From: an uncultured bacterium
Lineage (GTDB): Bacteria > Verrucomicrobiota > Kiritimatiellia > RFP12 > UBA1067
Assembly (NCBI GenBank): GCA_902761275.1
Contig: CACWJS010000003.1
Location: 1 to 59,735, forward strand
DNA length: 59,735 nt
Direction of reading: 5' to 3'
Shown: positions 36,624-51,632 of the stretch, in pieces
Layout of the letters: each line of letters begins with the position of its first letter
Position numbering within the stretch: position 1 is the first letter of the stretch
The notes under the pieces: generated by a model
Database searches by the model: none
Seen by the model: the letters and a program-made list of their open reading frames with translations, nothing else
What the model was told of the DNA's origin: nothing
Made by a program: the position numbers and the translations under genes

Positions 36624-38006
36624 ATGAAAGTCAATGACCATATTTCCGTCCGCTATCTCCTCGCAATCGCGGGGTTAGGCGGGCTTCTCTACGGCATCGA
36701 CTTTGGCGTCATCGCCGCAGCGTCTCCCTACATCAAGGCACTCGGACTATTCACCGACGCCGAGCTTAGTTGGGTCGTCGGAGCAGTCCTCTTCGGCGGC
36801 ATCGTTTCATCGCTTACGGCGGGGATGCTTGCCGAGCGGTTCGGCAGGAAACGCATGATTGTCGCTGCGGCTGCGCTCTTCTTCGTGGCTGTTCCTACTG
36901 TCTGCCTTTCGGAAAAGTCTCTTTGGACGATGCTTTTCGGACGCGTCCTCCAGGGCATGAGCGCCGGATACATGGCCGTCGTCATGCCGATGTATCTTAC
37001 CGAGACCCTGCCGCCGGAGATTAGAGGACGCGGCACCGGCGTTTTCCAGTTCTGCCTCGGGCTTGGCCTTGTCGCGGCTGCTGCTGTCGGATATTTTGTC
37101 GCGAAGCTGTACGGCGCGGCGGACGCGCCGGCGGAGCTTGTCGCGGATGCCGCTAAATCCGCTGCGTGGAAGATGAACTTCTGGTGGACGCTCGCTCCTG
37201 TTGCGGCGCTTTTTTTCGGCAGTCTGCGGCTCCCGGAAAGCCCGGTGTGGGAGAAAAGGGTAAAGTGTGGGAGTGGAGGAGTGAGGGAGTGTGGGAGTGG
37301 AGGAGTTAACTCACCCACTCACCCACTCACCCACTCCCTCACTTTGAATTCCCGCCGCTATGTCGTGCCTTTTCTCTTGGCGGTCGCCGTCCTGACGCTC
37401 AACAAGACGACGGGGATGAGTTCCGTCACCAGCTATTCGGTGATGATATTTCAGAAGGCCGGTTTCGCCGGAGCTCTTGGGAATGTTGGCGACTTTGCGA
37501 TCAAGCTGACGAATCTCGTCGTCACGCTCGTCGCGGCGGCGATCATCGACCGCGTTGGCCGCACACGGCTCTTGAAGATCGGCACGGCGGGCATGACGCT
37601 CGGGCTTGCGGCAATTGGCGGCGTCCTTCTCGCCATTGAGCGTTTCGGAGTCGCTGCGAACAGCGTGACAGGGATTTTCTGTCTCGCGGCGTTTTTCGTG
37701 ATGCAGGTTTTTTACGCGCTGGGTCCCGGCATCTGCGTGTGGCTAGTCCTTTCCGAGCTGATGCCTTCGCGCATCCGCGCCAATGGCATGTCGATTGCGC
37801 TTTTCATGAACCAGTTCGTCGCGTGGGGGCTCGCGTCGTCGTTCCTGCCGTGGGTCAACGCCTGGGGATGGGCGTCGATGTTCTTCTTCTTCGCCGTTAA
37901 CGGAGTAATCTACTTTATTGTCTCGCTCTTCATCCCCGAGACCAGGGGCAAGACGCTGGAGGAGCTTGAACATCTTTTTGATAAAAAGCTTGGAGCTGAG
38001 AGCTGA
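36624..38006 (+). CDS. Sugar porter (MFS) with repeat-derived central loop and C-terminus
   Basis: A 460-residue 12-helix major facilitator of the sugar porter family: GLLYGIDFGVIAAA, AGMLAERFGRKRMI, GRVLQGMSAGYMAVVMPMYL and PESPVWEKR in the first half, then DRVGRTRLL, LVLSELMPSRIRANGMS and the ending PETRGKTLEELEHLF. Residues about 211-242, in the cytoplasmic loop between helices 6 and 7, are encoded by the GTTAAC-centred octamer element (CGSGGVRECGSGGVN, SPTHPLTHSLTL). The stop codon at 38004-38006 lies inside a heptamer array, so the last residues KLGAES are repeat-encoded. It likely imports sugar released by the neighbouring enzymes. Confidence 0.88.
   Translation: MKVNDHISVRYLLAIAGLGGLLYGIDFGVIAAASPYIKALGLFTDAELSWVVGAVLFGGIVSSLTAGMLAERFGRKRMIVAAAALFFVAVPTVCLSEKSLWTMLFGRVLQGMSAGYMAVVMPMYLTETLPPEIRGRGTGVFQFCLGLGLVAAAAVGYFVAKLYGAADAPAELVADAAKSAAWKMNFWWTLAPVAALFFGSLRLPESPVWEKRVKCGSGGVRECGSGGVNSPTHPLTHSLTLNSRRYVVPFLLAVAVLTLNKTTGMSSVTSYSVMIFQKAGFAGALGNVGDFAIKLTNLVVTLVAAAIIDRVGRTRLLKIGTAGMTLGLAAIGGVLLAIERFGVAANSVTGIFCLAAFFVMQVFYALGPGICVWLVLSELMPSRIRANGMSIALFMNQFVAWGLASSFLPWVNAWGWASMFFFFAVNGVIYFIVSLFIPETRGKTLEELEHLFDKKLGAES
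37264..37344. repeat. Bipartite octamer element with GTTAAC centre, intragenic copy
   Basis: The G-rich arm has units GGGAGTGG/AGGAGTGA; the C-rich arm has tandem CTCACCCA units. They meet at GAGTTAACTC (GTTAAC at 37305-37310). It is the reverse complement of 4569-4642 with one additional 8-base unit and keeps the frame of the transporter gene. Confidence 0.85.
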
Positions 38007-38056
38007 GAGCTTAGAGCTCAGAGCTTGAAGCTTAGAGCTTAGAGCTGGGAGCAGAG
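37987..38056. repeat. Heptamer array AGCTTRG, left arm at the S23 gene
   Basis: Ten 7-base units from AGCTTGG to AGCAGAG. The transporter stop codon TGA (38004-38006) lies in it, and the array ends 11 bases before the S23-family ATG. The S23 ribosome site GAGGAGA is the immediate continuation. Confidence 0.9.
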
Positions 38057-38067
38057 GAGAAGTGAGT

Positions 38068-38430
38068 ATGATAAAGAGTTATAGAGAACTGAAGGTTTGG
38101 CAAAAGGCCATGGACTTTGCAGAACATGTGTACAAGGTCCAGAGGCGCTTTCCTGCCGAGGAACGCTATGGCCTCTGCGACCAGCTGCGCCGTGCAGCAG
38201 TTTCCATTCCTTCTAATATCGCGGAAGGTCGTGGCAGGGATACGGCTAAGGACTTTTCGCACTTCCTGTCACTTGCCCGGGGCTCTTTAAATGAAGTCAC
38301 AACTCAGTTGGAACTGGCGGTTCGGCTTGGCTATCTTGATTCCGGAAGCGGCCTCGATGAGGAATCCCAGGAGATCGGGAAAATGCTGAATGCCATGATA
38401 CAACGTCTTAAACAATCAAAACAACCCTAA
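38068..38430 (+). CDS. S23/IVP-family four-helix-bundle protein
   Basis: A 120-residue protein with the family signature: SYRELKVWQKAMDFAEHVYK, FPAEERYGLCDQLRRAAVSI, PSNIAEGRGRDTAKDFSHFL and LARGSLNEVTTQLELAVRLG, ending in the helix EIGKMLNAMIQRLK. This family is known from intervening sequences inside 23S rRNA genes and is structurally related to Avd of diversity-generating retroelements; its molecular job is unknown. No rRNA gene or reverse transcriptase is present here. The gene sits between a ten-unit and a six-unit heptamer array in inverted orientation, which suggests a movable unit. GAGGAGA before ATG 38068 decides the start over the GTG at 38062. Confidence 0.9.
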   Translation: MIKSYRELKVWQKAMDFAEHVYKVQRRFPAEERYGLCDQLRRAAVSIPSNIAEGRGRDTAKDFSHFLSLARGSLNEVTTQLELAVRLGYLDSGSGLDEESQEIGKMLNAMIQRLKQSKQP

Positions 38431-38454
38431 GGAAAGGAAACGCTTAGTGACGGT

Positions 38455-38496
38455 AGCTCTCAGCTAAAAGCTAAAAGCTCCAAGCTCTAAGCTGAA
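38455..38496. repeat. Heptamer array, right arm at the S23 gene (inverted)
   Basis: Six units AGCTCTC, AGCTAAA, AGCTAAA, AGCTCCA, AGCTCTA, AGCTGAA. Read on the other strand they give AGCTTAG, AGCTTGG and so on, so the orientation is opposite to the left arm. Confidence 0.85.
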
Positions 38497-38501
38497 AAAC
38501 C

Positions 38502-39530
38502 ATGATAACTCAAACATCAATTAGCTACTACGGGCTCAACTACGTAGAACACGCCGAGGCGGACTTCAAGGAAATGAAGGCGCACGGCGTCACCCAGGTG
38601 ATTCTCGCAGTGACGGAGTTCGACTTCGACTTCTGGCGGCCGAACATCCCCGCCATCGTCGACAAGGCGCACGAGCTGGGGCTCCGCGTCCTCATCGACC
38701 CGTGGGGCAACGGCAAGTACTTTGGCGGCGAACAGGTCTCGAAGTTCCTTCAGGACAACGTCGAAAACCGCCAGGTCTCGGCCTTGACCGGCGAGAAGCT
38801 TCCCTACGCCTGCTTCAACACGAACAGCTATCGCGACTACTTCAAGAACTTCTGCACGACGCTCGCCCGCGAAGCGAAGCCCGACGGCTTCTTCTGGGAC
38901 GAGCCGCACTACGCCTTCCCGAAGGGCATCGCCTCCATCACTGGCGGCGTTGCGGACGACTGGACGTGCTATTGTCCCGTCTGCCGCAAGCGTTTCGAGG
39001 ACTACTATGGCTACCCGATGCCGCGCTACATGACGAACGACGTGAAGCAGTTCCGCTGGCGCGAGGCGCTCGTTGTCCTCTCCGAGACCTCGAAGGCGCT
39101 GAAGGAGATCGACCCGAAGCTGGAGATCACCTGCTGTGTCCACGCGACGCAGAACGGCTACTACGTCTCGGAGTATCGCGGCTACGACAATTGGGATATG
39201 GTTGGCGCGTGTCCTTATTTCGACGTGTTCTCGACGACGATCATCAACTGGGCGCTTCCCGAGGACTTCTTCCTCGACATCACGCGTCGCACGGTTGCCA
39301 TCGCCAAGAAGTACGGCAAGCAGTCCGAGCGCTGGCTAATGGGCTACTACAAGCAGCCGAAGGACTGGAACCAGGTTGCACGCTGGGTCGACCTCGCCGC
39401 CAAGGAGGGCGTTGACCGCCTTGCCGCCTGGACGTACCGCGGTGGCTACGGCACGGTCGTCGGCGCGCCCGATGCGCTTAAACTCTGGGATACAATTGGT
39501 GAGAACTATAGGAGGGTATTGGGGATTTAA
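38502..39530 (+). CDS. TIM-barrel protein resembling a glycoside hydrolase, family not assigned
   Basis: A 342-residue cytoplasmic-looking protein without signal peptide. It shows barrel-type strands with acidic ends: ILAVTEFDFDFWRPNI, LRVLIDPWGNGKYFGG, KPDGFFWDEPHYAFP (candidate catalytic Asp/Glu), ITCCVHATQNGYY and LMGYYKQPKDW. CYCPVCRKRFEDYYG may bind zinc. Such proteins occur in sugar clusters of Lentisphaerae-type bacteria. A glycosidase role is inferred from fold-like features and context only. The stop codon is immediately followed by a heptamer array. Confidence 0.6.
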   Translation: MITQTSISYYGLNYVEHAEADFKEMKAHGVTQVILAVTEFDFDFWRPNIPAIVDKAHELGLRVLIDPWGNGKYFGGEQVSKFLQDNVENRQVSALTGEKLPYACFNTNSYRDYFKNFCTTLAREAKPDGFFWDEPHYAFPKGIASITGGVADDWTCYCPVCRKRFEDYYGYPMPRYMTNDVKQFRWREALVVLSETSKALKEIDPKLEITCCVHATQNGYYVSEYRGYDNWDMVGACPYFDVFSTTIINWALPEDFFLDITRRTVAIAKKYGKQSERWLMGYYKQPKDWNQVARWVDLAAKEGVDRLAAWTYRGGYGTVVGAPDALKLWDTIGENYRRVLGI

Positions 39531-39599
39531 GCTTGGAGCTTAGAGCTGAGAGCTTAGAGCTTGGAGCTGAGAGCTTAGAGCTTGGAGCGGGGAGATTGG
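39530..39599. repeat. Heptamer array filling the gap before the SIS gene
   Basis: Ten units (AGCTTGG, AGCTTAG, AGCTGAG ... AGCGGGG, AGATTGG). It starts on the last base of the preceding TAA stop and ends one base before ATG 39601. The last units supply the purine-rich ribosome site GGGGAG. Confidence 0.92.
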
Positions 39600-39600
39600 A

Positions 39601-40302
39601 ATGTCGGAATATTTGGAGAGAATTGTAGATGTCCTGCAGAGGGTTGAAGCGGAAGAGGCGGCGGCGCTTTCTTCTGCTTCGGACGCCGTTGCTGACGTAA
39701 TCTGCCGCGACGGAATCATCCATGTCTTCGGCTGCGGTCACTCCCATCTGCCTGCGCTTGACGCGTTCTATCGCGCTGGCGGGCTTGCATGTGTGTCGCC
39801 AGTCCTTGACGTTGACCTTATGCTGCATGACGGCGCGGCGAAGTCGAGCCGGATGGAGAAGATGCCGGGGATCGCGTCGGAAGTATATCGCCGCCACGGC
39901 GTGAAACAGGGCGACCTGTTCGTCGTCATATCGGCGAGCGGCAAGAACGCCGCGCCTGTGGAGATGCTTCGCGCCGCGAAGGCGGCAGGGGTAAAGACTG
40001 TAGCCGTTTCCTCGTCGGCGTACAAGCCGCATGGCGGTGTACTTCTGGACGAGGCGGACATTGCTGTCGATTGCAAAGTGCCGCATGGCGACGCAGTGAT
40101 CGACGTAGGCGAGGCAAAGATGGGCGGGCTTTCGACGTATGCCTCGCTTTTCATACTCAACACTGCGCTGATCGAAGGTGCGAAGAAGGCACTCGCGAGA
40201 GGCGTAACGCCGCCAGTCTACACGAGCGGCAACGTAGACGGCGGAACGGCGCGCAATGTCGCGCTGGAAGAGCGGTACTTCGGGAGGGTTAAGCATTTGT
40301 AG
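39601..40302 (+). CDS. SIS-domain sugar-phosphate isomerase-like protein
   Basis: A 233-residue protein of the SIS (sugar isomerase) fold, like the UPF0309/phosphoheptose-type group. It shows DGIIHVFGCGHSHLPALDAF, a phosphosugar-binding loop VVISASGKNAAPVEMLRAAK, VKTVAVSSSAY and an ending GGTARNVALEERYF typical of the group. It probably acts on an amino-sugar phosphate, fitting the GH20-like enzyme, kinase and transporter around it; the exact reaction is unknown. Arrays adjoin both ends. Confidence 0.8.
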   Translation: MSEYLERIVDVLQRVEAEEAAALSSASDAVADVICRDGIIHVFGCGHSHLPALDAFYRAGGLACVSPVLDVDLMLHDGAAKSSRMEKMPGIASEVYRRHGVKQGDLFVVISASGKNAAPVEMLRAAKAAGVKTVAVSSSAYKPHGGVLLDEADIAVDCKVPHGDAVIDVGEAKMGGLSTYASLFILNTALIEGAKKALARGVTPPVYTSGNVDGGTARNVALEERYFGRVKHL

Positions 40303-40440
40303 CTTAGAGCTTGGAGCTTAGAGCTTGGAGCTTGGAGCTTAGAGCTTGGAGCTTAGAGCTTGGAGCTTAGAGCTTAGAGCTTGGAGCTTGGAGCTTAGAG
40401 CTTAGAGCTTAGAGCTTGGAGCTGGGAGCTTAGAGTGGGA
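40301..40440. repeat. Longest heptamer array (about 20 units)
   Basis: Nineteen consecutive AGCTTAG/AGCTTGG units (one AGCTGGG) run from 40301 to 40433, plus the degenerate unit AGTGGGA. It starts in the TAG stop of the SIS gene and ends at the GTG start of the kinase gene. Adjacent A/G variants alternate irregularly, so it is not one simple duplication. Confidence 0.95.
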
Positions 40441-41283
40441 GAGAATGTGGAAAAGAAACGCGTTAAGATAGCTGTGGTCGGCATGGTCGGCAAGTCCGTC
40501 TTCATGGAAGTCGAACGCTTCCACGAGGGTGGCGAGACTGTCATGGCTAGGTCGTGCCACGAAGATTGGGGCGGGAAGGGCTTCAACCAGGCCGTCGCGG
40601 CCGCGCGCCAGGATGCCGACGTTGCGTTTCTGGGCGCATGTGCGGAAAGAGACCGCGCGGCCATACTGTCTGACTTGGCTGGCGAGGCCGGCCTTTCGCT
40701 TAAGTTAGTTGGTCGCGACATCAACTCGGCGCTCGCGACGATCATTACCGACACGGCTGGGGCAACGCAGGTGACCTGCTGCGCAGGCGCGGAACTTGAG
40801 CCGGCCGACGTAGACGCGTTTGTCGACGAGATTGCATCCGCCGACATTCTTCTGCTGAGCAATGAGGTGCCGGAATCCGTAAACCTGCGCGCTTCCGAGA
40901 TAGCGGAGCAAAGGGGCGTAAGAATCGTGATGAACCCTGCGCCGTCGCGTCCGCTGCCAGACGTGCTGAAGCGTCGTGTCTCGCTCTTCACGCCAAACGA
41001 GTTCGAGACGGCGGGTCTTGGAGATGCCCCTGGCGAGGTGGTGACGACGCTTGGCGAGAAGGGCTGCCGCATCCGCTCGACTGGCGAGGTTGTCCCGCCT
41101 GCTCCCAGCGTCAAGGCGGTCGACGCCACTGGCGCGGGCGACACGTTCAACGGCGTTCTCGCGGTGCGCATTGCGGAAGGCGCGCCGCTTGCCGAAGCCT
41201 GTCGCGCCGCGAACGATGCGGCGGCCAAAGAGGTGTCTGTCCGCTACGTCTTGCCTGCTATACCGTATCGTAGAAGATCATGA
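40435..41283 (+). CDS. PfkB-family sugar kinase (ribokinase-like)
   Basis: A 282-residue kinase. It shows VGMVGKSVFMEVERF, the substrate-site region HEDWGGKGFNQAVAAARQDA (the 'GGKGxNQA' of ribokinases), MNPAPSRPLPDVL, LFTPNEFE, VTTLGEKGCR and the catalytic VDATGAGDTFNGVLAV with the Asp base. Ribose or a related sugar released in this cluster is a likely substrate; this is inference. GTG 40435 lies in the last array unit. GTG 40447, with GGGAGA 5 bases before it, is an equally possible start. Confidence 0.88.
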   Translation: MGENVEKKRVKIAVVGMVGKSVFMEVERFHEGGETVMARSCHEDWGGKGFNQAVAAARQDADVAFLGACAERDRAAILSDLAGEAGLSLKLVGRDINSALATIITDTAGATQVTCCAGAELEPADVDAFVDEIASADILLLSNEVPESVNLRASEIAEQRGVRIVMNPAPSRPLPDVLKRRVSLFTPNEFETAGLGDAPGEVVTTLGEKGCRIRSTGEVVPPAPSVKAVDATGAGDTFNGVLAVRIAEGAPLAEACRAANDAAAKEVSVRYVLPAIPYRRRS

Positions 41284-41301
41284 ACATATTGGAGACTGTC
41301 T

Positions 41302-42849
41302 ATGCACAATGCAATTAAACTCGCTGCGGTTTGCACCGCTCTTCTGCCGTTCGCCGCGTTCGCCGGGAATAAGGCGAATCCCGACGCAATAGAACTTGCG
41401 CCGTTGCCCATGCCGGTGCAGTTCAAGGCCGACATAGACAAGCCGGTAGCTTTCGACGCATCCACGACGGTCGCTCTTGAATGTCCCGACGCCAAAGGCG
41501 CGGAATGGCTCGCCGTTCATTTCAGGGAATGGTACGGAGACCAGTCGCCGAAGGTCGTTGCCTCCAACCTTTCAACCTTTCAACCTTTCAACCTTTCAAC
41601 CTCCCCGGAGGCCTATTCCATGGCATCCGGCGTGTCGGGAGTCAAGATTGCTGCTCGCACTCTTGCGGGCATTAGGTGGGCGGCGTACACATTGCGGCAG
41701 CTCGCCATTGCGAAGCGCGGCACGTTCAAGACCGAGGGACGCATACTGCCGACGCTGGAGATTTCTGACTCTCCGCACCTCGCGTTCCGCGCAGTCCATC
41801 TCTGCTGGTTCCCCGAGGTCAGGCCGCAGCAGATGGAACGCGCGATTCGCCTCGCGGCGCTTCTCAAGTTCAACTACGCGATCATCGAGCCGTGGGGCAT
41901 GTACGCGAGCGAGAAGCATCCGTGGTGGCATTGGCCGAATCCGACGATGACGAAGGAGGAGGTGCGTCGTCTCGCGGCGATAGGACGCGACCTCGGCATC
42001 ACGCTCATCCCGCAGATCAACGCGTTCGGGCACGCCTCGTCGTCGCGCGGCTGCACGCTTAAGCACATGGTGCTTGACCTCTCCCCAGAATACGAGCCGC
42101 TGTTCGAGCCGGGCGGGTGGAACTGGTGTCTTACCAACCCCGAGACACAGCGGGTGCTACGCGAGCTGATTGCCGAGATGCACGAGGATTTCGGCAATCC
42201 ACCGTTCTTCCACCTCGGATGCGACGAGGCGCAGCCGCCGACGTGTCCGGAGTGCCGCAAGCGGCCGTACGGCGAACTCGTCTGCGAGCACATCGTCGGT
42301 CTCGCCGACTTCGTCAAGTCACGCGGCGCGAGGGCGATGATCTGGCACGACATGCTGCTTGAGAAGGGCGATCCTCGCTGGAAGGGCTTTGTTCACTTTG
42401 GCTCGAAGACGACTGCGACGCTCGCAGACACGCTTTCCAAGGACGTGATCATCTGCGACTGGCAGTATTCCTACGGCAACATGAAGGAAGCTCGCGGCGA
42501 TTGGCCGACGATGGGCTATTTCAAGGAGAAGGGCTTTGCCGTCGCAGGATGCCCGTGGATGAACTACAACTCGATGAAACCGATGGCCGACTACATCGCC
42601 AAGATCGGCGGTTTCGGTTTCATTGAGACGACGTGGCACCATTTGCGCGGCGACGACTGGATCAACATGTACAGATACGCCTCGGCCGCCGCGTGGGGGA
42701 CTTCCGTTCCGCAGACTCCGCCGATGTACAACACCCCGTTCGGCAATGCCCTGCGTCTCGTAGGACACGACATGAAGACGACGGACTATCTTGACACGGG
42801 TCACCTCAACTACCAGGTGCCGCCGGGATGGTGGGTGGATAACAATTAG
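41302..42849 (+). CDS. Exported GH20-like beta-N-acetylhexosaminidase
   Basis: A 515-residue enzyme with a signal peptide (MHNAIKLAAVCTALLPFAAFA). Residues about 30-135 form the GH20b-like N-domain. The barrel has HLCWFPEVRP, GITLIPQINAFGHASSSRGC and the GH20 catalytic pair in FHLGCDEAQP (Asp308-Glu309), followed by MIWHDMLLEKGD. It would release terminal N-acetylhexosamine from host glycans. Residues about 88-101 (NLSTFQPFNLST) are encoded by an octamer array inserted in a surface loop of the N-domain. The TAG stop begins a heptamer array. Confidence 0.82.
   Translation: MHNAIKLAAVCTALLPFAAFAGNKANPDAIELAPLPMPVQFKADIDKPVAFDASTTVALECPDAKGAEWLAVHFREWYGDQSPKVVASNLSTFQPFNLSTSPEAYSMASGVSGVKIAARTLAGIRWAAYTLRQLAIAKRGTFKTEGRILPTLEISDSPHLAFRAVHLCWFPEVRPQQMERAIRLAALLKFNYAIIEPWGMYASEKHPWWHWPNPTMTKEEVRRLAAIGRDLGITLIPQINAFGHASSSRGCTLKHMVLDLSPEYEPLFEPGGWNWCLTNPETQRVLRELIAEMHEDFGNPPFFHLGCDEAQPPTCPECRKRPYGELVCEHIVGLADFVKSRGARAMIWHDMLLEKGDPRWKGFVHFGSKTTATLADTLSKDVIICDWQYSYGNMKEARGDWPTMGYFKEKGFAVAGCPWMNYNSMKPMADYIAKIGGFGFIETTWHHLRGDDWINMYRYASAAAWGTSVPQTPPMYNTPFGNALRLVGHDMKTTDYLDTGHLNYQVPPGWWVDNN
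41565..41602. repeat. Octamer array CAACCTTT inside the GH20-like gene
   Basis: Four full identical units plus CAACCTC. Same unit family as 49338-49401 (complement) and 51103-51139. Frame is kept. Confidence 0.92.
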
Positions 42850-42903
42850 CTTGGAGCTTAGAGCTGAGAGCTTGGAGCGTAGAGCTGAGAGCTTGGAGCT
42901 GGG
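42848..42903. repeat. Heptamer array behind the GH20-like gene
   Basis: Eight units (AGCTTGG, AGCTTAG, AGCTGAG, AGCTTGG, AGCGTAG, AGCTGAG, AGCTTGG, AGCTGGG) starting in the TAG stop codon. Confidence 0.92.
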
Positions 42904-42941
42904 GAATTTCTGATTGGGAAATTAAAACTGAAAGAGAGAAC

Positions 42942-43694
42942 ATGAACATAAAGAAGATGAACAAGGGGCTCGACTTCCTGCGCGAGAAGTACGGAGCCAA
43001 GAATGGTGTGATAACCATCAAGGACGGGCATTGCTTCGTCGGAGCGACGCCGCTTTTGCCCGGGCGCATGGAGCGCAAGATCGTGGAACTCAAGAAGATG
43101 ACCGAGAACGGCACGCTCGAGGGCGTCTCGACTCTGCGCTTTGCGTCGTTTGCGTCGAAGGGCGTTAGTTTGGAGGCGATGCTCGCGAAGGAACTTGACC
43201 TCGCCGCGTATCTCGGCGCGTCCGACGTGGTGCGCGTGATGGCCGTTGCAAACGGCCCTGCAATCAACGTCCTCGCCAAGCTTGCCAATGACGTGAATGT
43301 ATCCGTCGAAATCGGCGCAGGGCTTCCGAAGGGCGAAGCCGGATATGACCGCCACGAGATTATCGCGAAGCGCGGCGTTGCCTGCGACCAGACGGTTGAC
43401 ACCCACACCAAGCATGAGTCAATCCGTTGCTGGGGGTCGGACGGCATGGAGGAATATACCGACGTCGATACCGAACTCTTCGGGCTTTCCTACGATGAGA
43501 TCTGGAATGTCCGCGCGGCATTCGCGCTTCTTCAGGGGCGCGCCGACGCGAAGGTCTGGAAGGCCGCTTGGGCGAAGGCAACGAAGGCCGCCAAGCTCGC
43601 GTTCGCAGCTGACAAGTCGAAGGCGGCGAAGACCATCGCCGTAAAGAAGGGCCTTGACACCAACCAGTCGATAAAGGTTGCAGAAGTCAGATAA
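42942..43694 (+). CDS. Unknown protein of the sugar cluster
   Basis: A 250-residue protein starting MNIKKMNKGLDFLREKYGAK, without signal peptide or membrane helix. It alternates strands and helices (VITIKDGHCFVGATPLLPGR; VLAKLANDVNVSVEIGAGLP; VACDQTVDTHTKHESI) and ends in a Lys/Ala-rich helical tail. Its middle part could belong to the substrate side of a Gfo/Idh-type fold, but no Rossmann motif is present and no family is claimed. It directly precedes a Gfo/Idh/MocA oxidoreductase and may be its partner. Confidence 0.6.
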   Translation: MNIKKMNKGLDFLREKYGAKNGVITIKDGHCFVGATPLLPGRMERKIVELKKMTENGTLEGVSTLRFASFASKGVSLEAMLAKELDLAAYLGASDVVRVMAVANGPAINVLAKLANDVNVSVEIGAGLPKGEAGYDRHEIIAKRGVACDQTVDTHTKHESIRCWGSDGMEEYTDVDTELFGLSYDEIWNVRAAFALLQGRADAKVWKAAWAKATKAAKLAFAADKSKAAKTIAVKKGLDTNQSIKVAEVR

Positions 43695-43779
43695 AGTTGA
43701 AGTGTAGAGTTCAAGTTCGAGAAAGAAAGATTCCACTCTCCAACTCCAACTCAAAACTCCAACTCGTCTCAATCCTGTC
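43695..43779. repeat. Inverted-repeat element, intergenic copy
   Basis: The left part GTTGAAGTGTAGAGTTCAAG is only loosely complementary to the right part. Bases 43730-43779 nearly equal 11174-11220, ending in the nonamer AATCCTGTC. It fills most of the gap before the oxidoreductase gene. Confidence 0.8.
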
Positions 43780-43800
43780 AAAAAAGAAAGACAATATTTT

Positions 43801-44883
43801 ATGAAACCTGTAAAAATCGCGATGATGGGCATGACCCACGGCCATACCCGCAAGTACTACCAGACGCTTCTCGACAACCAGAAGCTCGACTGGGTCGCTT
43901 CTTGCGCCCAGGACAAGGACGCCAAGAAGACCTACGAGCTATACAAGACTGGCGTTCCCTGCTACCTCGATCCCGAGGAGATGTATCGGGAGCATCCTGA
44001 CATCGAAGCCGTCGTCATCGCCTCGGCGAACGACCGCCACTTCGAGCAGATGAAGTGGTGCGCCGAGAAGGGCATCCACATCCTCTCGATGAAGATCCCG
44101 ACCTTCGACATGAAGGAGTACGACGAGATGATCGCCATGTGCGACAAGGCGGGCATTGTTTGCCAGATCGAGCTCGAGATGCACTACAACTCCGTCGTGC
44201 GCCGTTTGGAGAAGCTTGTGAAGGAAGGTGCCATCGGGAAGATAAAATCCGTACAGGCTACGAACATCACACTTTCGCCGGTGTGGGCGTTTCCGTGGCA
44301 GGGCGACCCGCAGGCGAGCTTTGGCAAGGTCGAGCACCTCAAGAAGGGCGACCCGCGTTACAAAGGCGGCGCTCTTTGCGACCACCCGCATATCTTTGAC
44401 CTTATCCGCCATCTGACCGGCAGCAGCTTCGACTACATCTACGCCGAAGTCGCGCCGAACCTGCGCGACGGGCTGAAGGTCGAGGACATGCTCATGGCCG
44501 TCGGCAAGATGAAGGACGGCACGGCATTCCTCTTCGATCCCTCCTGGAGTCGCCTCGAGGAGAAGCTCGCGGTGCCCGGTCCGGGCTGGGAGCGCTTCCC
44601 CAAGCGCATGGAGGTGAATCTCACCATCACCGGCGACCGTGGCGCGATCTCCTGCGACTGCTTCGGTCCGAACGTCTACCACAACGGCGCGCCGAATGAC
44701 CGCTACACCGTCCAGTACACGTACTTCGACGAGTGGGTTGGGCTCATCGACGAGTTCGTTGACTGCATCCGCAACCACAAGACGCCGCTCATCAACCTCA
44801 GGTGGCACAAGGAGACTATCCAGGCGATGCTCGGCTGCTACGAGTCGATTCAGACTGGCAAGATCGCAAGAGTGGGAGGGTAG
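43801..44883 (+). CDS. Gfo/Idh/MocA-family oxidoreductase
   Basis: A 360-residue NAD(P)-dependent oxidoreductase. It has an N-terminal Rossmann fold (IAMMGMTHGHTRKYYQTLLD; IEAVVIASANDRHFEQMKWC) with SMKIPTF in place of the usual EKP motif, a change seen in subgroups. The substrate domain has GGALCDHPHIFDLIRHLTGS with the His-x3-Asp catalytic pattern. It probably oxidises a sugar or cyclitol produced in this cluster. It lies behind an inverted-repeat element and ends at an array. Confidence 0.85.
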   Translation: MKPVKIAMMGMTHGHTRKYYQTLLDNQKLDWVASCAQDKDAKKTYELYKTGVPCYLDPEEMYREHPDIEAVVIASANDRHFEQMKWCAEKGIHILSMKIPTFDMKEYDEMIAMCDKAGIVCQIELEMHYNSVVRRLEKLVKEGAIGKIKSVQATNITLSPVWAFPWQGDPQASFGKVEHLKKGDPRYKGGALCDHPHIFDLIRHLTGSSFDYIYAEVAPNLRDGLKVEDMLMAVGKMKDGTAFLFDPSWSRLEEKLAVPGPGWERFPKRMEVNLTITGDRGAISCDCFGPNVYHNGAPNDRYTVQYTYFDEWVGLIDEFVDCIRNHKTPLINLRWHKETIQAMLGCYESIQTGKIARVGG

Positions 44884-44968
44884 AGCTTGGCTTGTCCGCC
44901 GTAGCTCCGTTAGAAGCGAAGGCGGAAGCTTAGAGCTTAGAGCTTGGAGCTTTGAGCTTAGCGCTGAA
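44882..44968. repeat. Interrupted heptamer array behind the oxidoreductase gene
   Basis: It starts AGAGCTTGG in the TAG stop and is split by a 36-base insert with TCCGCC...GGCGGA ends (44895-44926). It then continues as AGCTTAG, AGCTTAG, AGCTTGG, AGCTTTG, AGCTTAG, CGCTGAA (44927-44968). Confidence 0.85.
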
Positions 44969-45045
44969 AGATTTTTTCGGAAAAAGTGCGGAAGATGCAC
45001 CTTTACCTTGCGGCGGGAAAGAGCCGCCAGAAGGGAAGGTGCAAT

Positions 45046-46707
45046 ATGAACGACGACAAATATACTGAAAAAGGATTCTTCCGCAGGCTTTTTGAAATGT
45101 TTCAAGGCCTCAGGATGCCTCGAGACACGCGCGAATACAAACTTGCCAGGATTGAACTCCAGCGTCTTTCCGCGCCGCTCACGGCGATTGTCGTGCCTAC
45201 GCTGTTCGTTATAGTCCTTTGTGTCGTGACGGCTGTTTCGTCTAAGCCGAGGGAGTCGTTTCCCATTGACATTCCGCCAATCGATGACGATCCCGTGGAT
45301 CTGACTCCGCCCGACGAGCCAGACACGCCAGACGACGTCGTTCCACCCGAAGAGATCGAAATCACTGTCGACACTCCGACTCCTCCTGCGCCGTTTACGC
45401 CATTGCCGCCTACGCCTATCAATACACCTTCGACGGATGTTACCGTGAAGCCCGCGTCTATTGACGCAGTGATGAACATCAAGTCGCCTGTGACGATGAA
45501 AGATATAACTGGGGGGCGTGACCCGGGTAGAATCGGGGCGGTGACATCTGGCAAGTCGCAGGGCGGCGGCGATCCGCATACGGAGGCGACGGTGATGAAG
45601 GTTCTTTGGTGGCTTAAGGCGCACCAGAACACCGACGGCAGCTGGGGCAGTGCAAACAAGGTTGCGAACACCGCCCTTGCCGTGCTGACTTACCTCGCTC
45701 ATGGCGAATATCCGGGAAATCGTCTCTCGCCCTATACGCGCGACTTCGGCCCTACTGTGCAATCTGCGCTTGACTATCTCGTCGCCAGCATCTACGTCGG
45801 CAAAGACAACCTTCCCCACTTCCAGGGTACGGACGGCAACGAGTACAGCTTCCTCATCGGCACCTACGCGCTTTGCGAGGCGTTCGCCATGACGAAGAAC
45901 CCCAACTGCAAGGAGGCGGCTACGACGTGCCTCGGCCGCATCATCGAGAACCAGTCCACGACAGGCGGCTGGGACTACAAGCTCAACAGGAACTCGACAC
46001 GCGATGACCTTTCCTTCGCGGGTTGGGCTATCCAGGCGCTCAAGGCGGGCAAGATGGCCGGTCTCCACCACGAGGGGATGCAGACAGCGATCAACAAGGC
46101 GGTGAACTGCCTCAAGAAGCGCGGCTACTCGAAGTCCGGCGGCTTCACCTACACGCCGACGGCGAACAACAACGGCGGCAACACCGGACTCGCCGGCGTC
46201 GGCACGCTCGCAATGCAGTTCCTTGGGCGCGGCACTGAGCCCGAGGCATTGAACGCGCTCGAAGTGATGCGCGACTGGGTGCCCGCGTTCGAGGCGGACA
46301 AGCTATCCGAAAGGAAGCCCGGCGGCAGCCCCCAGTATTACTGCTACTACGCGACGCAGTGCAAGTATCAGGCAGGCATGAAGCCGGGCGCGACGAAGCA
46401 AGACGTCGATTCGTGGGTGAAATGGAATCTTGCGATGAGAAAGCTCTACCCGTCGTCGATCATCACCCTCCCCGAGAAGGTCGCAGACGTCAAAGGGAAG
46501 GAACACGCGCAGGGCTATTTCCAGAACGCCGACGCGCATTCGTCGCGCCCCTACATGGACACGTGCCTCGCGGCGCTCCAGCTGATGGTCTACTACCGCT
46601 ACCTCCCGACGACGTCCACGAAGGCAGGCGAGAACGACGCGGGCGAAGGCGATGGTGTCAAGGGCTTTGACAGCTCCAAGGACGTCACGGTCGTCGTCTC
46701 CTTGTGA
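45046..46707 (+). CDS. Membrane-anchored alpha-toroid (prenyltransferase/squalene-cyclase-like) repeat protein
   Basis: A 553-residue protein. A cytoplasmic basic N-terminus is followed by a membrane helix (about 40-62, IVVPTLFVIVLCVVTAV), a long Pro/Asp/Glu-rich linker (about 70-150) and a C-terminal alpha/alpha toroid (about 180-530) with QW-like repeats such as QNTDGSWGSANKVANTALAV, TTGGWDYKLNR and AGVGTLAMQFLG. No DXDD cyclase motif was seen, so enzymatic cyclase activity is doubtful. Similar periplasmic toroid proteins are common in PVC bacteria with unknown role. AAGGGAAGG before ATG 45046 decides the start. Confidence 0.75.
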   Translation: MNDDKYTEKGFFRRLFEMFQGLRMPRDTREYKLARIELQRLSAPLTAIVVPTLFVIVLCVVTAVSSKPRESFPIDIPPIDDDPVDLTPPDEPDTPDDVVPPEEIEITVDTPTPPAPFTPLPPTPINTPSTDVTVKPASIDAVMNIKSPVTMKDITGGRDPGRIGAVTSGKSQGGGDPHTEATVMKVLWWLKAHQNTDGSWGSANKVANTALAVLTYLAHGEYPGNRLSPYTRDFGPTVQSALDYLVASIYVGKDNLPHFQGTDGNEYSFLIGTYALCEAFAMTKNPNCKEAATTCLGRIIENQSTTGGWDYKLNRNSTRDDLSFAGWAIQALKAGKMAGLHHEGMQTAINKAVNCLKKRGYSKSGGFTYTPTANNNGGNTGLAGVGTLAMQFLGRGTEPEALNALEVMRDWVPAFEADKLSERKPGGSPQYYCYYATQCKYQAGMKPGATKQDVDSWVKWNLAMRKLYPSSIITLPEKVADVKGKEHAQGYFQNADAHSSRPYMDTCLAALQLMVYYRYLPTTSTKAGENDAGEGDGVKGFDSSKDVTVVVSL

Positions 46708-49337: not shown

Positions 49338-49401
49338 GGTTGAAAAGTTGAAAGGTTGAAAAGTTGAAGAGTTGAAGAGTTGGAGAGTTGAAGTGGTGAG
49401 G
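49338..49401. repeat. Octamer array GTTGAARR before rnhB
   Basis: Seven units (GTTGAAAA, GTTGAAAG, GTTGAAAA, GTTGAAGA, GTTGAAGA, GTTGGAGA, GTTGAAGT) plus GGTGAGGA, which provides the purine-rich ribosome site for the GTG at 49409. It begins directly behind the terminator T-run. Confidence 0.93.

Positions 49402-50874: not shown

Positions 50875-51632
<758 letters not shown>

Follow-up and report, generated by a model that had tools for sequence, protein, structure and literature searches.

Heptamer arrays at stop codons in a Kiritimatiellia genome: probable dispersed parts of an S23-associated repeat system

Tandem arrays of the heptamer AGCTTRG recur at gene junctions in a 59,735-nt stretch of DNA from an uncultured bacterium of the Kiritimatiellia, here called the window, which is contig C3 (CACWJS010000003.1) of a 3.43-Mb draft genome that is 88.8% complete. 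Our analysis indicates that these arrays are probably the dispersed parts of a repeat-dispersal system in which an S23 protein would serve as specificity factor, resembling repetitive extragenic palindromic (REP) sequences and the cognate REP-associated tyrosine transposases (RAYT). In REP/RAYT (REPIN) systems, a single trans-acting gene is flanked by a repeat that is dispersed genome-wide in single as well as paired inverted copies. In many bacteria and some archaea, the unit found beside an S23 gene likewise tends to equal the unit that is scattered through the genome. In the following, L### denotes the loci compared, G### genomes and C## contigs, G000 being the genome of the window.

The complete S23 element of the window (Table 1) sits between the major facilitator superfamily (MFS) gene A (36624-38006) and gene C (38502-39530). 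Its protein product matches PF05635 (E=1.4e-40, 138.2 bits; cut-off 33.8) as well as TIGR02436 (134.8 bits; cut-off 24), placing it in the S23 family; PF05635 and bAvd are its only Pfam matches, and the nearest solved structures are 2gsc (E=1.6e-27) and 2rld, with five chains each. At the orthologous junction of four congeners (L218-L221) the 495-bp insertion is absent and genes A and C nearly touch; therefore, the element of the window is an insertion. The same junction carries other arrays in L217, L222, L223, L224 and L225. An earlier note on this DNA, which had drawn attention to the AGCTTRG arrays, overlooked the array pair at 37993/38462 with the S23 open reading frame (ORF) in between, and likewise those arrays in the window that are built from other units.

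The four arrays described in that note, which stand after genes C, D, F and H, are all present at the positions given there. Its observation that the first unit shares bases with the preceding stop codon holds at 39530, 40301 and 42848, and the fourth array starts at the TAG 44881-44883: after a single AGCTTGG unit comes a hairpin insert of 35-40 bp and then five units at 44927-44965. The further claim that arrays extend to the next start codon is only partly borne out: regular units stop at 39588 and 40430, from where degenerate units, the ends of which are approximate, continue in the first case to the ATG at 39601 and in the second to a start that is ambiguous between GTG 40435 and 40447; the 42848 array ends 41 nt short of the next start codon. 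The window contains 24 AGCTTRG dimers as compared to 0.02 expected, and the genome contains 51 on seven contigs, whereas the reversed pattern has no occurrence. Arrays in the genome were surveyed by pattern searches and in stretches totalling ~361 kb, and genes were called with a simple script; these stretches contain 29 arrays with a period of 6-10, compared with none after Markov shuffling. The note would have been refuted by arrays without a genome-wide preference for stop codons, a check that was made in this genome: of 11 solo AGCTTRG arrays, 9 start either inside the upstream stop codon, with the joints TA|AGCTT, T|AGCTT and TG|AGCTT, or immediately behind it, with the joint TAG|AGCTT. 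The fit of the arrays to stop codons is not chance. A TCCGCC...GGCGGA hairpin (44886-44926 in the window) splits an AGCTTRG array at two places, namely in the window and in contig C40 (L046), and this recurrence suggests that the composite units were copied whole.

Inverted arrays around the gene are a general property of S23 loci. We compared 72 S23 genes from the family of the window's bacterium and 76 from many bacterial phyla and Methanophagales archaea, three of the latter being records already among the 72. In the family set, the inverted-repeat score of the 250-bp flanks had a median of 25 versus 10 in controls, 92% of the genes exceeding the 95th percentile of the controls, and arrays were present in both flanks of 40% of the genes as compared to 0/216 controls. 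Similar values were obtained for the multi-phylum set (median 22 versus 10; 89% above the 95th percentile; arrays in both flanks in 21% versus 0/152). The downstream arm of the same gene was the best or a top-3 match in 57 of the 72 genes. Arms have a median length of 37 bp and a best period of 7 in 80/111 cases; units are usually 7 nt, sometimes 8-9 nt, and vary among elements, with both arms of one element matching each other. The S23 type and its unit are inherited jointly, as S23 pairs that are at least 65% identical have similar arms in 80-100% of cases and pairs below this value in 2-4%. These data bear on the explanation that the arrays are ordinary replication-slippage microsatellites or assembly artefacts, which would be compatible with imperfect units of varying number and with the reported over-representation of heptamers in many bacteria (PMC4692102). 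However, one unit occupies a dozen separate places of one genome, inverted pairs surround S23 genes in many phyla with the unit tied to the S23 type, and the same arms are found in independently assembled genomes. Independent slippage at each junction was rejected because it would neither reproduce one unit nor tie the unit to S23, and we regard this explanation as hardly credible.

The arms of S23 elements also correspond to the arrays dispersed elsewhere in the same genomes. In the genome of the window, 57% of the arrays match one of its own S23 arms as compared to 8% when four foreign elements were drawn at random, and 0/2000 such sets scored as high. The heptamer GGGAATC published for Xanthomonas (PMC4692102) shares the geometry of the window's arrays, and 2gsc, the closest solved S23 structure, is from Xanthomonas; therefore, S23 genes there were expected to have such arrays. 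The arms read in a Pseudoxanthomonas-centred panel of 149 genomes (64 with an S23 match and 85 without) include GGGAATC, GGGATTC, CGGGACC and CGGGACT types, and GGGAATC-type arms flank S23 in some of these genomes. CGGGACC dimers number 66, 113 and 126 in three genomes, which are the three with near-pure CGGGACC S23 arms, and at most 9 in all others. The test itself was made with a less strict criterion for arms (at least three CGGGACC matches; seven genomes versus the rest), which takes in four extra genomes with 1, 4, 7 and 7 dimers, and gave p=9e-7, a value that, like the other p-values here, ignores kinship within the panel and that rests on a cut-off chosen with the counts in view, as arm cut-offs generally were. 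Genomes with GGGAATC arms have a median of 57 GGGAATC dimers versus 0 (p=7e-5), and GGGAATC arrays occur in 34/64 genomes with S23 versus 10/85 without (odds ratio 8.5, p=6e-8).

Further junctions bear on the mobility of the elements. L062 and L071 share the element alone, located at different junctions of one operon in two genera. In genome G030, two element copies share 480 bp, and one of them shares likewise with a copy elsewhere in G016. The insertions in L062 and L071, and in L119 versus L117 and L122, are independent, with similarity ending at the element ends, and in G016, a related genome, the site of L119 is occupied by arrays lacking an S23 gene. S23 elements thus show presence and absence at orthologous sites with defined ends, as transposable elements do, and from these comparisons we infer that they are mobile. 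Two identical Calothrix plasmid copies belong to a larger duplication and are uninformative on element ends; S23 genes on plasmids are mostly cyanobacterial, and none were found in phages. Solo arrays and hairpins vary similarly: at the junction of the 39530 array, L043 has a different heptamer array (AGTGTAA), the junction of the 40301 array holds no array in L042-L044, and at the G-H junction L043 and L044 have hairpins of other units while L042 has none. The earlier note had explained the fit between arrays and genes either by insertion aimed at the ends of genes or by selection, the arrays serving to set gene spacing, translational coupling or mRNA ends. Insertion is supported by the A-C junction, which is empty in four congeners and holds different arrays in others, and by one type of element occurring at different operon junctions in two genera; the position at stop codons is confirmed; spacing or coupling is not needed, given that one junction has different units or none across species and that stop-free arrays also occur within genes.

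The G-H junction raises the question whether the hairpin formed by the junction RNA is all that matters, e.g. as mRNA end, RNase III site or attenuator, the units being incidental. AGCTTRG is quasi-palindromic and arrays fold strongly on their own (the 40301..40433 array is predicted to form an RNA hairpin of -74.1 kcal/mol, z -5.5), L043 and L044 have different hairpins at one place, and in Coxiella RNase III cuts out the 23S intervening sequence (IVS; PMC4990558). However, non-palindromic solo arrays (AGTGTAA in L043, CACTAAC in L222) occupy similar places, and the correspondence between S23 arms and genomic units would remain unexplained, rendering a function of the hairpin alone improbable. 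Cleavage of the element RNA by RNase III, by analogy with the Coxiella IVS, is possible, since both the RNA of the element and some of the arrays at junctions form good folds.

Across S23 elements, the left boundary lies between -21 and +5 nt from the upstream stop codon in 65/101 cases as compared to 23/111 random points; on the right, elements stop close to the next start codon. S23 genes are co-directional with the upstream gene in a ratio of 61:6; left arms overall contain 38% G and 12% C, and stop triplets number 369 in sense versus 195 in antisense. The left arm of L071, a related element in another genus, also starts at the upstream stop codon. Arrays in coding regions never have more sense than antisense stops, i.e. 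they are found in the stop-free orientation, whereas intergenic arrays more often do and tend to be G-rich with stops on the sense strand. Selection against stops within genes explains part of this placement; targeting may be needed in addition for the exact joints at stop codons. Insertion itself could favour stop codons, for instance as ribosome-paused or nicked sites, in place of insertion into gaps followed by selection, which would refine the proposed dispersal of arrays more than replace it. In favour of such precision are the joints at nine of eleven solo arrays and in L071 and the ancestral stop positions retained in orthologs of D and G, yet the boundary is broad when all elements are considered, arrays within genes show that other sites are used, and boundary estimates are fuzzy for degenerate arrays. 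We give precise targeting less than an even chance.

Based on these findings, dispersal of the arrays may be pictured as follows. The full form of the element, ~0.5 kb in size, is an S23 gene between two inverted arrays; gene-less hairpins of two inverted arrays as well as solo arrays are its derived forms. The S23 protein, pentameric in solved homologs, is proposed to recognise its own tandem unit as DNA or RNA and to promote in trans the spread of copies, which would mostly enter the gaps that separate co-directional genes; a ring that reads tandem units is an attractive model. The G-rich left arm with its stop triplets lies at the upstream stop codon and the inverted right arm near the next start codon, and inside genes the arrays have stop-free orientations only. 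Both recognition of the heptamer by S23 and the role of S23 in dispersal we infer from the correspondences described above.

Several observations weigh against this proposal. The element encodes no transposase, recombinase or reverse transcriptase, and neither transposase nor reverse-transcriptase families were found among the nine proteins scanned at 36624-46707. In some genomes that are rich in S23 genes no reverse transcriptase was detected, and no target-site duplication was obvious in the junctions read. S23 identity below ~60% does not predict unit similarity, and a specificity code readable across phyla was rejected on this ground; several high-identity S23 pairs are orthologous and not independent insertions. 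In the Pseudoxanthomonas-centred panel, the correspondence has exceptions: among the genomes rich in GGGAATC, several carry S23 arms of the GGGATTC or another type, ten of the 85 genomes without S23 match have at least five GGGAATC dimers, and the choice of arm cut-offs and the relatedness of the genomes, for which no phylogenetic correction was made, apply here as well. Finally, 83% of array positions are conserved between two Xanthomonas species (PMC4692102), which suits slow turnover or function. A reverse transcriptase acting in trans was rejected as a requirement, as none was found in several S23-rich genomes, some of which are incomplete; the lone match in the genome of the window, at C157:770-1423, is distant from arrays.

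Function rather than mobility is at the core of another explanation, according to which S23 is a domesticated regulator and no mobilisation factor, binding as a TRAP-like ring to mRNA arrays at stops and starts and tuning intercistronic mRNA ends or coupling, with the arrays kept by selection. This idea would account for the mostly single S23 gene per genome, facing, in the panel, up to ~130 array dimers of the cognate unit CGGGACC, for the co-directional arrays at stop codons with their G-rich and C-poor left arms, and for the conserved array positions and the transcription of the arrays in Xanthomonas (PMC4692102). However, the arrays of a given junction turn over rapidly even within a genus, where units differ or are missing altogether, arrays occur within coding regions, and the wobble signature expected of RNA pairing between the arms is absent (168 G.U versus 204 A.C). 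Selection for RNA pairing as the force keeping arms alike was rejected for the same lack of a G.U excess. We thus consider a purely regulatory role unlikely, and dispersal of the arrays with the help of S23 the probable explanation.

The arrays described in the earlier note lie in an operon at 36.6-44.9 kb, in which the MFS transporter gene A and the S23 gene B are followed by C (unknown), D (SIS), E (PfkB kinase), F (GH20), G (unknown) and H (GFO/IDH/MocA oxidoreductase). The proteins of C and G (42942-43694) have no Pfam or NCBIfam match and are 97% and 90% identical, respectively, in the congener L043, being conserved unknown parts of the operon. Further arrays with other units are listed in Table 1. 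No Rfam family was found in the window at gathering threshold.

Table 1. Heptamer arrays and S23 element features in the window
Feature	Position	Strand	Remark
Inverted 8-mer arrays, in frame within central loop of MFS gene A	37264..37343	+	Varies in orthologs
Complete S23 element (left array, S23 ORF, inverted right array)	37985..38501	+	Orthologous-junction comparison
Left arm, 7-nt tandem array AGCTTRG/AGCTGAG	37987..38052	+	Provides stop codon of gene A
S23/four-helix-bundle protein, 120 aa	38068..38430	+	From ATG 38068; GTG 38062 also possible
Right arm, inverted array copy	38456..38493	-	8 nt ahead of gene C ATG
Solo AGCTTRG array	39530..39588	+	First A is final base of stop TAA 39528-39530
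Solo AGCTTRG array, ~19 units	40301..40433	+	AG in common with stop TAG 40300-40302
CAACCTTT array, in frame within GH20 gene F	41565..41602	+	Unit matches arms of S23 element in contig C16 (L064)
Solo AGCTTRG/AGCTGAG array	42848..42900	+	AG in common with stop TAG 42847-42849
Degenerate array and inverted copy (hairpin), G-H junction	43692..43775	+	Junction comparison, folding
AGCTTRG array from stop TAG, split by TCCGCC...GGCGGA hairpin	44881..44965	+	Composite recurs in contig C40 (L046)
GTTGAAAA intergenic array	49339..49390	+	Unit matches arms of C16 S23 element
TTTCAACC array, predicted coding region, stop-free orientation	51103..51136	+	Unit matches arms of C16 S23 element

S23 elements also occur in operons of other kinds. 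A type I-D CRISPR operon on the Anabaena sp. 90 plasmid pANA02 contains, between its cas6 and cas4 genes, an S23 gene that has heptamer arms (L229, 2989-3357). The 23S rRNA IVP is listed among CRISPR-linked genes (PMC10910872), which may be explained by such an insertion, and PF05635 has already been noted in surveys of diversity-generating retroelements (DGR) and of CRISPR. In L076, L085 and L102, GGGGAAC arrays lie in frame in a umuD-like gene, and an S23 element separates this gene from a umuC-like gene (names by reading the translation). As a caution, an S23 gene within a CRISPR operon or another operon may have been inserted there without being part of the system.

Genes of the S23/four-helix-bundle family occur across many phyla of bacteria and in some archaea without known function, and dispersed heptamer repeats have repeatedly been reported as unexplained; the present finding joins the two. 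Each S23 gene thereby gains a predicted cognate sequence, namely its own arms, and S23 function becomes testable by simple binding and deletion experiments. In a broader form, to which we give somewhat less than an even chance, S23 proteins would be widespread repeat-readers, each placing a ring on an element-specific heptamer and dispersing or maintaining the repeat without a transposase or reverse transcriptase of its own; bacteria and archaea would then share a mobile repeat system of a new kind, the 23S IVSs being a special case. No paper linking S23 to heptamer arrays was found in searches of open-access full text.

Among known systems, S23 elements are similar to REP/RAYT in that a gene is flanked by its own dispersed repeat and in that a single S23 gene is accompanied by many arrays. 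In contrast to RAYT, S23 is a small four-helix bundle without Y1 HUH domain, the Xanthomonas structure being described as an assembly of five four-helix bundles, and the repeats are tandem heptamers. Avd of DGRs has a fold homologous to S23 (PMC10053308), but the S23 protein of the window scores 31 bits against the Avd equivalog (cut-off 80) and has no reverse transcriptase beside it, separating it from Avd and DGRs. As in the Coxiella 23S IVS, an S23-family ORF occupies the loop of a ~0.4-0.5-kb inverted-repeat element, and the IVS has heptamers (GACAGAT) in variable number upstream of its S23p ORF (PMC4990558); unlike the IVS, the element of the window has protein-coding genes on both sides instead of residing within a 23S rRNA gene, and it has dispersed derivatives lacking S23. 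The arrays themselves, consisting of head-to-tail 7-nt units that are mostly intergenic, are bacterial heptanucleotide tandem repeats. In Xanthomonas and Nostoc, 7-nt arrays (GGGAATC / GGGGA(C/T)T), many in convergent pairs, have the G-rich strand at or over stops and the C-rich strand near the next start; they were published as G-quadruplex repeats to which the authors were unable to assign a role, and the accessible part of the report does not mention a link to S23 (PMC4692102). The TAACTGA repeats of Beggiatoaceae, cyanobacteria and Bacteroidetes are intergenic and near starts, some overlapping upstream stops, and differ in having one unit only, with S1, Csp and CsrA as proposed binders (PMC4679880). 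Geobacter metallireducens has dispersed 3-5-unit heptamer arrays between and inside genes, of which two classes are paired on opposite strands, described as putative global regulator sites (PMC2700814). These published heptamers from Xanthomonas, Beggiatoa, Geobacter and the Coxiella IVS look like the same phenomenon.

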